DNA of 33,333 nucleotides from Pirellulales bacterium (GTDB taxonomy: Bacteria > Planctomycetota > Planctomycetia > Pirellulales > JADZDJ01). The stretch's first letter is position 1, and each line of letters opens with the position of its first letter. The stretch covers positions 1-33,333 of the forward strand of contig DASRSD010000161.1 of the NCBI GenBank assembly GCA_035656635.1, read 5' to 3'. Below, one piece after another: positions 10,217-32,708 of the stretch. The position numbers and the translations under genes are program-made. The notes beneath the pieces were generated by a model. The model had not been told where the DNA came from and did not search any database. It worked only from the letters and a program-made list of their open reading frames with translations.

Positions 10217-11584
10217 TTATTGTCGGACGATGGGGCCCAGCAGTTGGCAAATCTCGCCGGGTTCAATTTTGAAAGTGCGAACAATATCGATCCCATCGCC
10301 GGTGCCGCCGGGAACGCCATCTGAACCATAGCTCGTAATGACGAAAGTGTCGGGCCCGGTTACCGAATAATGGAGCTTTTGGTTCCAAGCATCGGTGATT
10401 TCTTTTGCCGAGCGGTTGTCCTGAATAGCACACAGTTTTGCAGGCAACTTTTGATTCTGCAGGGCGTACAGCTCGATGCGATTGGCCGTTTTATCGATGG
10501 TGGCAACGGTGAAATCAACCGGTGAATTTGCATTGGCCAACGATCTGGAAAAAAATAGGCCGAAAAAAATGATGCTGGCAGCGAACGCGGCAACCATGCC
10601 GGCCGGCAGGTTTGAATACTCGCGAAATTTCCGACGAATGCTGACTTTCCGATTGGGGCGTGTGTCTGCCGAGGGGATTGCACGCACGGGGCCTGGCTGC
10701 GACGCCCCAGGAAAAAAGCTGCGCGGGGTTGGTTCCTCGAAGAAGCTTTCCCACGGGGTGCCTAAGAAGTGTTGTTGCAATTCAGTGTAATTTTCAATCG
10801 CCACCGATAAGGGACGCACTTCCTGCTTGATCATATTAATTTTTAGATCGCACACGTCGACGCCGAGAAACTGCTGCGCTTGCCGCAAGTGTTCCGCAGG
10901 AGTTTGTGAGACATCTTCATAAAACCAATCCAGGGTTTCGTGTCCCGCGATTTTTTTATCGATGACTTTATTATAACGCTGCCTGCTGCGCCATTCGGCT
11001 ATGCACTGCCTGGGCTTAAGATGCACCACCGCTTGCGATCTTTCAGACTCACTTCCAATTTTGAACTTTGTGGTTTGTTCTGCTATTTTCAGAGAGGTAT
11101 AAGTCGCTAAAAGATTACGCCGTTTAAGATAAATAATTTGCACCTCTTGGTTTCGCTGCAGCCATTTCCAAATGCAGCGGAACGTGTGATTTTCAACCTG
11201 CTCTGGAAACAGCTTGAAGCCAACCGCCTTGACGTGGTCTGGGTAAGACGCAAATACATACTGCTCAAGAAACTCCAGCGGCCATTTATTTCGGAACTCC
11301 ATTAACTTGGCGGAATGATTTTCGTAGCTGCCGAAAGCAAAATCGATTCGCTTGCGGTGAAACAACTCGGCAAAGGCGACAATTTGCGGATGATTGTCCA
11401 GGGCATCGATAATCATTGAGGAGCCGGAACGTGGATGCCCCAACAAGACGAACTTGCGGTAGCTGCGATTCGACCCTTGCAAGGCAGCCGGCCGGGTGGC
11501 AACTAAATCTGCAACGGTCGTTTTTTCTGGACGTTGGGCGGGCTTCAACGATTGAAGCGCGGTGCCGAGGCGTGCTTCGGGCAT
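10217..11584 (-). CDS. Sulfotransferase fused to a transmembrane helix and GspG-like pseudopilin domain
   Basis: The 455-residue protein has two unrelated halves. Residues about 43-290 resemble Stf0-like sulfotransferases: the 5'-phosphosulfate loop is at 51-56 (PRSGSS), followed by NHPQIVAFAELFHRKRI, then IIYLKRRNLLATYTSLKIA, which matches the 3'-phosphate-binding region. These enzymes transfer sulfate from PAPS to a sugar or lipid acceptor. After a Pro/Arg-rich linker a transmembrane helix lies at 328-350. The last 105 residues look like the soluble part of GspG: IELYALQNQKLP, then DAWNQKLHYSV at 398-408 and SYGSDGVPGGTGDGIDI at 418-434, the calcium-loop end of type II secretion major pseudopilins. 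No prepilin-peptidase leader is present at the N-terminus. A strong Shine-Dalgarno (GGGAGGAGAT, 11592-11600) fixes the start. The stop at 10217 converges on the helicase gene. The acceptor, topology and role of the fusion are unknown. Confidence 0.8.
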   Translation of the reverse strand: MPEARLGTALQSLKPAQRPEKTTVADLVATRPAALQGSNRSYRKFVLLGHPRSGSSMIIDALDNHPQIVAFAELFHRKRIDFAFGSYENHSAKLMEFRNKWPLEFLEQYVFASYPDHVKAVGFKLFPEQVENHTFRCIWKWLQRNQEVQIIYLKRRNLLATYTSLKIAEQTTKFKIGSESERSQAVVHLKPRQCIAEWRSRQRYNKVIDKKIAGHETLDWFYEDVSQTPAEHLRQAQQFLGVDVCDLKINMIKQEVRPLSVAIENYTELQQHFLGTPWESFFEEPTPRSFFPGASQPGPVRAIPSADTRPNRKVSIRRKFREYSNLPAGMVAAFAASIIFFGLFFSRSLANANSPVDFTVATIDKTANRIELYALQNQKLPAKLCAIQDNRSAKEITDAWNQKLHYSVTGPDTFVITSYGSDGVPGGTGDGIDIVRTFKIEPGEICQLLGPIVRQ

Positions 11585-11591
11585 AGTAACA

Positions 11592-11600
11592 TCTCCTCCC
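11592..11600 (-). promoter_or_regulatory. Strong Shine-Dalgarno of the sulfotransferase-pseudopilin gene
   Basis: On the reverse strand GGGAGGAGAT ends seven bases before the ATG at 11584. It is one of the strongest ribosome-binding sites in a window where many genes have none, and it supports active translation from this start. Confidence 0.7.
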
Positions 11601-31582: not shown

Positions 31583-31772
31583 TGGCGAACGCCGGACGGC
31601 ATTCTAACAGTAATGTAACCAAAGCCTGACAGTACAACCGTTGACACGTATTGAACCATTATCAAGACGTATGAATCCTCGCGCGTTCAATTCTCAAGTT
31701 GTTCACCGGTGCATTTCGTTGAAAGTCGCTGACTTTTTTGATGCGATATAAATGCTTCGAAGAAGGACCTTC

Positions 31773-32708
31773 ATGGCAACCACTCGAAAGTCCGGATTCA
31801 CTTTAGTTGAGTTGCTGGTAGTGATTGCGATTATTGGAATTCTAATCGCTCTTCTCCTACCCGCGGTTCAGTCCGCCCGCGAAGCAGCCCGCCGTACGGA
31901 ATGCCTCAACAATTTGCGCCAAATGGGATTGGCGCTCATGAACTACGAAAGCGCAAAGAAGAGCTTTCCATATAGCCGTTGGGGAGACAAGGTCGCGATT
32001 TATCTTAATCCGTTTAAAACTTCGAATCAGCAGTCTTGGACGTCCGTCATTTTGCCGTTTATAGAAGAAAGGGGAATCTCCGCGCAGTACGACCAGACGC
32101 AAGCTTGGTGCAGCCAAGCAAACCGTCCTGCAATTAGCATGACTATCAAAATGTTCCTTTGCCCATCGACTCCAGCCGAAAATCGCGTCGACACAACCTA
32201 CGCTAAAGGTGCCATTGCCGGTGATTACGGATCGATGAACGGTGTCAAATCCGGTTTTTGGAATCACTTCCCGCAACTAGGAAAGGCAACATGGGCCGAA
32301 AGCCGCCCGCCGGCGGTGGGCGTGCTCAACAAGTATCAGGACGGGAATGGTGTGAACATTTCCGCCTGCAAAATCAAAGACATTACGGACGGCACTTCAA
32401 AAACGATGATGGTCGCAGAAGATGCCGGACGGCCTGAACTGTATCAAAACGGATTGGATGCCAACACCGTCGTCGGCAACGGCATTGGCTGGGCGGATCC
32501 CGATAATGGCTTTAGCCTGTCCAATTCGTCGGGCGTGGTCATGAACGCCACAAACGACAGTGAAGTCTACAGTTTTCATATCGGGGGCGCACAGTTTTGT
32601 TTTGCCGATGGAAGCGGCCACTTTATTCAAGAAACGATCGATCCATTGATCTATATGGCGATTGTGACTCGCGCGGGCGGCGAGAACATCCCCGGCAACG
32701 CTTTCTAA
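31773..32708 (+). CDS. DUF1559 prepilin-like protein with H-X9-DG motif
   Basis: The 311-residue protein starts with a type IV prepilin leader: a short charged stretch, then GFTLVELLVVIAIIGILIAL with the Gly before Phe that prepilin peptidase cuts and the Glu at +5. The N-terminal helix continues LLPAVQSAREAARRTECLNNLRQ, the planctomycete DUF1559 form. The C-terminus has HIGGAQFCFADGSGHFI, an exact H-X9-DG motif, and ends YMAIVTRAGGENIPGNAF. This family is greatly expanded in planctomycetes, but its role is not known. AAGGA six bases before the ATG supports the start over the one at 31752. It stands alone, 190 bases after the dockerin gene. Confidence 0.92.
   Translation: MATTRKSGFTLVELLVVIAIIGILIALLLPAVQSAREAARRTECLNNLRQMGLALMNYESAKKSFPYSRWGDKVAIYLNPFKTSNQQSWTSVILPFIEERGISAQYDQTQAWCSQANRPAISMTIKMFLCPSTPAENRVDTTYAKGAIAGDYGSMNGVKSGFWNHFPQLGKATWAESRPPAVGVLNKYQDGNGVNISACKIKDITDGTSKTMMVAEDAGRPELYQNGLDANTVVGNGIGWADPDNGFSLSNSSGVVMNATNDSEVYSFHIGGAQFCFADGSGHFIQETIDPLIYMAIVTRAGGENIPGNAF

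Follow-up and report, generated by a model that had tools for sequence, protein, structure and literature searches.

A predicted sulfotransferase fused in frame to a GspG-like head domain in a planctomycete genus

Analysis of the gene at 10217..11584 (minus strand) of the window, as we call the whole 33,333-nucleotide stretch of DNA analysed here, showed that its 455-amino acid product is a genuine in-frame fusion and a rare, new combination of known parts: a sulfotransferase domain, a linker, a transmembrane (TM) helix and a GspG-like (T2SSG) head, in that order. The assignment was made based on the open reading frame, Pfam matches and an ortholog from a sister species. Both halves scored above their Pfam cut-offs, with Sulfotransfer_3 at residues 46–244 (32.3 bits; cut-off 27) and T2SSG at residues 359–435 (28.2 bits; cut-off 21); in a whole-genome search, T2SSG scored 27.5 bits and Sulfotransfer_3, scored there on a partial match, 21.7 bits, which is below the cut-off of 27. 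The fusion is not a chance feature of the data, since a second species of the same genus (G001) encodes a 451-amino acid ortholog (L078:5674-7029) with the same architecture, aligned nearly end to end at 52% identity. These results confirmed the in-frame fusion proposed in a preliminary description of this DNA, and the sister species showed that the two halves are not always separate genes. Although the genome containing the window is fragmented (190 contigs), the joining of two genes by an assembly artefact has a next to negligible probability, because a separate genome carries the same join in the same place at that level of divergence. With a probability of roughly 60%, we interpret the product as a membrane-held cytoplasmic PAPS sulfotransferase whose substrate is a precursor of an envelope glycan and whose periplasmic head may bind calcium.

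Translation of the plus strand of 10217–11584, made in one frame, gave many stop codons. A Shine-Dalgarno-like sequence, GGGAGGAG (11593..11600, minus strand), was read 8 bases 5′ of the ATG at 11584, and AAGGAGG precedes the ATG of the sister-species gene. The promoter scan returned no promoter-like site, and terminator-like sites occurred at chance level. The gene order bshB1-like, fusion, uvrD-like, with gene names assigned from sequence, was common to both species. Elsewhere in the window, at 31752-32708, a prepilin-like gene (FTLVELLVVIAIIG, recognised by eye) was present, with no visible link to the fusion.

The N-terminal 284 residues were assigned to a PAPS-dependent sulfotransferase, an activity predicted from the features of the domain. 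The domain proper covers residues 41–284 (10733..11464, minus strand), as delimited by Pfam, relatives, the structural model and a fold search, and it ends where the stand-alone relatives end. It includes the 5′-phosphosulfate loop PRSGSS at residues 51–56 (11417..11434, minus strand), of which R52 and G54 were invariant in an alignment of 33 rows, namely the window protein plus 32 frames taken from 31 of the 48 loci of sulfotransferase relatives. The same alignment showed E73, R155, N157, S164, E223 and N265 to be invariant. We take R52 and G54 to act in the 5′-phosphosulfate loop, and R155 and S164 to be the Arg and Ser of the 3′-phosphate site. The model of residues 41–284 was confident, with ten-residue blocks mostly at pLDDT >90. 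Annotation reading identified 39 of the 40 Foldseek matches at E ≤ 0.001 as sulfotransferases (TPST2, heparan 3-O-sulfotransferases, Stf0 and others), the sole other match being Get1/Get2/Get3 at rank 32; TM-scores over these 40 matches were modest (0.15–0.31 by query, 0.22–0.52 by target). The nearest solved sequence was PDB 9vki, named LPS sulfotransferase NodH, with E-values of 2.4e-10 for the single sequence and 4.6e-20 for the family profile. The window protein thus shares the PAPS loop, the R155/S164 region, E73 and the fold with Sulfotransfer_3 and Stf0-NodH-like enzymes (9vki; Stf0 1tex), but whereas the relatives in the 48 named loci stop at the end of the enzyme, it continues for about 170 residues of linker, TM helix and head. 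An APS kinase is encoded in the genome of the window. Another unusual fusion, found in the same class (L061:1444-3447), carries a Stf0-like sulfotransferase domain C-terminal to an NPCBM domain.

The enzyme is followed by a variable linker (residues 285–328; 10601..10732, minus strand), Pro-rich and then Arg/Lys-rich, which the comparison of orthologs showed to be poorly conserved, and by a single hydrophobic helix (residues 329–347; 10544..10600, minus strand) identified from hydrophobicity, the model and the sequence. The hydrophobic peak extends over residues 326–347. In the 30 residues on either side of the helix, Lys and Arg were distributed 8:2 and 8:3 between the N-terminal and C-terminal sides in the two species. 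This excess of positive residues before the helix points to an N-in/C-out topology, with a cytoplasmic enzyme and a periplasmic head. PAPS is made in the cytoplasm. The position of Met330 at the start of the helix, together with Met324 and Met331 at this place in the sister gene, could indicate that one gene gives two products, with an internal start at Met330 also yielding a free, small anchored head; the resulting 126 residues would be close in length to six stand-alone proteins of 132–188 amino acids. Such a second product is nonetheless improbable, as by eye none of the three Met codons is preceded by a Shine-Dalgarno-like site, while both gene starts are.

The GspG-like head, delimited by Pfam and head-profile matches, covers residues 349–440 (10265..10540, minus strand) and contains DAW at 398–400 and SYGSDGVPGG at 418–427; these two motifs and PRSGSS had been listed in the preliminary description and were all present in the translated reading frame. 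A head profile of 12 rows (the heads of the two fusions, nine of non-pilin type and that of the prepilin L057) found the GspG structures 3gn9, 3fu1, 4lw9 and 2kep with E-values of 3e-10 to 1.3e-9, and 5wda weakly, so that the GspG match suggested earlier for the C-terminal part was recovered by Pfam T2SSG and by this profile alike. The head was modelled poorly, with a mean pLDDT of 52 alone and ten-residue blocks at or below 60 in the whole model, and its fold assignment therefore rests on the sequence profiles. Alignment to EpsG/GspG structures delimited a predicted calcium loop, SYGSDGVPGGTGDGIDI, at residues 418–434 (10283..10333, minus strand), in which D422 and D433 occupy the positions of the aspartates in the GADG and ADI elements of EpsG; both are kept in the two species. 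In 3G20, D117 and D125 coordinate the calcium through their side chains, together with backbone oxygens, with T122 given as a side-chain calcium contact in one passage and as a main-chain contact in another (PMC3396595). Judged by the aligned aspartates, calcium binding by the window head, also raised in the preliminary description, is plausible.

The window protein shares the T2SSG domain and the D-W, GADG-GG and DI elements with the GspG major pseudopilin (3gn9, 3fu1, 4lw9, 2kep; TIGR01710), but differs from it by having no leader or cleavage motif, a helix in the middle of the protein and a score far under the equivalog cut-off. A regex scan of both orthologs detected no prepilin-type motif in the window protein; the sole match, AASNSE at position 389 of the G001 protein, lies away from the start of the helix. 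Together with the hydrophobic peak, this agrees with the mid-protein helix without a prepilin leader that had been noticed earlier. Against TIGR01710 (GspG equivalog) the head scored 15.9 bits compared to a cut-off of 88.85, which is not a clean test because, among nine non-pilin T2SSG proteins, eight fell below this cut-off but the tandem protein L063, which does not look like a pilin, passed with 108.5 bits. In a tree of 41 rows, of which the 39 non-fusion rows were hand-chosen from the loci found and in which the bootstrap was unsettled, a branch with 98/97 support parted 23 prepilin heads from the other rows, which comprise 16 non-pilin heads and the heads of both fusions. The heads of the two fusions were not each other's neighbours in this tree: one of them grouped with the long-branch row L028, and the tree therefore supports the split between pilins and non-pilins only. 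The genome has its own GspG (AFTLIE) on another contig, where it adjoins a T2SSF protein; its loop is shorter than that of the fusion head. No gsp operon was present at the fusion locus, where the neighbours are bshB1-like, cobL-like and uvrD-like genes.

A protein of this kind could also be a true modular pseudopilin through which the enzyme becomes part of the T2SS pseudopilus. A pilin-type module is likewise joined to a functional module in modular type IV pilins, for example PilB of Streptococcus sanguinis, but these have the pilin end at the N-terminus and a class III leader (PMC8179133), whereas the window protein has an N-terminal enzyme and no leader. The T2SSG score above the Pfam cut-off and the presence of T2SSF proteins and GspG in the genome would fit a pseudopilin. 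One enzyme relative (L128:5173-7477) is flanked by a prepilin peptidase gene (Peptidase_A24) on one side and by an ORF bearing a prepilin N-methylation motif on the other, a context that favours a pilus link at that locus and was the sole such hint. Weighed against the missing prepilin motif, the tree position of the head among the non-pilins, the low TIGR01710 score (qualified by L063, as above) and an enzyme N-terminal to the helix, which is the reverse of the order in those published modular pilins, these points leave a modular pseudopilin very improbable. The preliminary description had offered anchoring of the enzyme to a secretion pilus as one meaning of the fusion; with no cleavage motif, a predicted cytoplasmic N-terminal part of 328 residues, a head grouping with non-pilins and a separate, ordinary GspG beside T2SSF, this proposal was not upheld.

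The head is better compared with T2SSG domains that occur outside pili. Regex classification of 34 distinct head-containing frames, taken from loci found in the genome searches, gave 8 with a prepilin motif, 6 with a lipobox, 17 with another hydrophobic segment and 3 with none, although these anchor classes are rough, since L009, L036, L037 and L058 (classed as TM/signal) look like lipoproteins, L042, L051 and L066 (classed as lipobox) may not be lipoproteins, and one L068 frame classed as TM/signal has the pilin-like GFTLIQ. The window head resembles those of small planctomycete TM-anchored proteins and lipoproteins (L083, L084, L085, L087, L088), in which the same head follows a non-pilin anchor; unlike the window fusion, these proteins are stand-alone and 152–188 amino acids long. 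In the stretches read around the stand-alone heads of L083–L088, no ORF matching the window's sulfotransferase was found near the head, and an origin of the fusion from an operon accordingly received no support.

T2SSG matches at E ≤ 1e-4 were present in 75 of 117 genomes of the order that were searched for them. Besides the two fusions, 11 distinct frames of at least 390 amino acids were listed for the order, of which 10 were examined (G063:C113 was left out). Three of these combine DUF2961, which we take to be GH172-like, with T2SSG (L169:2289-4910, L170:2070-4436 and L176:2209-4176), and they come from three genomes of one family. As in the fusion, T2SSG is joined to another domain in these proteins, but the head makes up part of a longer C-terminal region, ahead of which no hydrophobic helix was noticed, and the profile match stops at position 90–93 of 108, before the calcium loop. 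Two further frames (L171, L172) encode long proteins in which Pfam detected no domain besides T2SSG at E ≤ 0.01, and the remaining five (L168, L173, L174, L175, L177) are prepilins as judged by eye from an FTLxE-type motif, with L168 having only 186 amino acids on a separate frame count. A single protein at L063:1243-2808 contains four copies of the T2SSG domain, and in L070 this domain lies inside a long protein with no hydrophobic segment right before it. L063, L059, L062 and L066 were observed to be 468–522 amino acids long, with three or four T2SSG-like stretches (some of them weak) and an N-terminus that is signal-like rather than pilin-like. The window fusion is one case of a T2SSG domain used outside pili. 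Because non-pilin anchors and other proteins carry this head as well in these genomes, a match to ‘type II secretion system protein G’ alone should not be taken as evidence of a pseudopilin.

The distribution of the fusion was narrow. With a profile of the two orthologs and the best four candidates per genome, matches to both halves were obtained in two genomes out of 396 in the order and in one out of 392 in the phylum, the latter being the window's own; the two genome sets overlap. Among the same candidates, all remaining matches were confined to one half, a few enzyme-half matches running past the end of the enzyme through stop codons, up to profile position 328 at most (L050). The fusion was present in two of the three family genomes examined. 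It had no match in G002, from another genus of the family, in which the bshB1-like gene (83% identical) is followed by an ORF that by eye encodes a Fur-type regulator. The preliminary description had named conservation of the two-domain architecture in several genera as support for a real fusion; among the genomes searched, the architecture was found in one genus only.

Scanning named genomes with narrow fusion patterns found nothing, and a scan of named genomes with the enzyme alignment gave 48 loci in Planctomycetota, Chloroflexota, cyanobacteria, proteobacteria and others. No head match was detected in any of the 48 (frames of at least 60 amino acids, E ≤ 1e-3), and the main enzyme frame was unbroken in 46 of them. 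The profile match ended at position 278–288 with 0–10 residues remaining in 45 loci, and at 254 with 1 residue remaining in L137. In L133 and L134 the enzyme was split over two frames, the second of which ended at 283 with 1–2 residues remaining, and in a second frame of L132 the match broke off at 243 and was followed by 45 residues that contain no hydrophobic helix. Since the relatives lack the head and the enzyme ends there, the linker, helix and head appear to have been added, in this lineage, to an enzyme that was already complete. A complete, stand-alone sulfotransferase would probably have gained an anchor and head of the small non-pilin planctomycete kind.

Between the two orthologs, identity was 61% in the enzyme compared to 45% and 44% in the head and helix, respectively. 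From a codon comparison, dN/dS was lowest in the enzyme (0.13), higher in the head (0.30) and highest in the 23-codon helix (0.68), and it was undefined for the linker, where dS was saturated; owing to the high dS in enzyme and head (1.9 and 1.5, respectively) these values are rough. The fusion was the fastest-changing of eight genes compared, its 52% identity contrasting with 75.5–95.7% for seven neighbours. The faster change of head and helix, and the occurrence of the fusion in one genus only among the genomes searched, could indicate that the head is a non-essential passenger that is drifting, the fusion giving a membrane anchor alone or nothing. We regard this as unlikely, if still a serious candidate, because the reading frame and the DAW, SYGxDGxPGG and DIVRT elements are kept in both species and the dN/dS of the head is below 1, though with dS near saturation.

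Gene neighbourhoods pointed to the probable substrate of the enzyme group. For 25 of the 28 loci with at least 12,000 bases (all but L100, L107 and L109, which nearly repeat others), we scanned a single ORF to either side of the relative, in each case the nearest one called, apart from the downstream ORFs of L099 and L106. These two neighbours included a glycosyltransferase, polysaccharide flippase, Wzy-type or UDP-sugar epimerase gene in 17 of the 25 loci (L095, L098, L099, L104, L108, L111, L115, L116, L117, L124, L125, L126, L132, L133, L135, L136 and L138), and no glycan gene was among them in the other eight (L105, L106, L112, L121, L123, L128, L129 and L137). The other neighbour of the relative in L138 is an APS kinase gene. 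Glycosyltransferase, polysaccharide deacetylase/methyltransferase and radical SAM genes surround the relative in L080, and the one in L090 adjoins an FkbM methyltransferase gene. The two closest enzyme relatives are L091 and L092. L092 has a GH9 hydrolase, an amidase, a transporter and others nearby and no glycan biosynthesis neighbour, while the four scanned ORFs surrounding L091 gave no match. A sugar substrate is therefore likely for the sulfotransferase group, and we extend it to the window gene by inference, although that gene is not itself near glycan genes: its neighbours, named from sequence, read as housekeeping. The earlier suggestion that the protein modifies glycans was thus backed indirectly, by the surroundings of many relatives but not by those of the window gene.

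In our preferred interpretation of a membrane-held sulfotransferase, the protein would be a bitopic inner-membrane enzyme with its catalytic domain in the cytoplasm, at the site of PAPS synthesis, and a single helix tying it to the membrane. Most likely, it would act at the cytoplasmic face and sulfate a sugar intermediate that is bound to the membrane and belongs to a glycan of the envelope or one that is exported. The periplasmic head would form a small globular domain, possibly stabilised by calcium, and could serve for docking or stabilisation, with anchor and head fixing the enzyme to the membrane or to a partner belonging to the export machinery. This interpretation brings together a predicted topology, putative calcium binding, a predicted sulfotransferase activity, a presumed glycan substrate, a probable origin and a supposed partner of the head. 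If true, it would describe a bacterial sulfotransferase that is tied to the membrane by a C-terminal anchor with a domain on the outside. A wider proposal, which we consider speculative and rather doubtful, is that in Planctomycetota the GspG head escaped from pili and was recruited as a general-purpose module of the envelope, found on lipoproteins, bitopic proteins, tandem arrays and enzymes, and that in the genus of the window a periplasmic calcium-binding head positions or gates, from outside, glycan sulfation by the cytoplasmic sulfotransferase.

The sulfotransferase and T2SSG parts are both known and their combination is new; searches of open-licence literature gave no paper describing the fusion, a C-terminal anchor on an enzyme of this type or a GspG head outside a pilin. 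Because the partner enzyme has a measurable activity, the fusion offers a testable lead to the role of the detached head. As a further observation on the enzyme group, a DUF6473 gene immediately adjoins the stand-alone sulfotransferase in four loci (L080:5047-5994, L112:4960-5901, L121:6796-7701 and L123:6800-7687), and its product is perhaps a partner in the pathway of the sulfotransferase.
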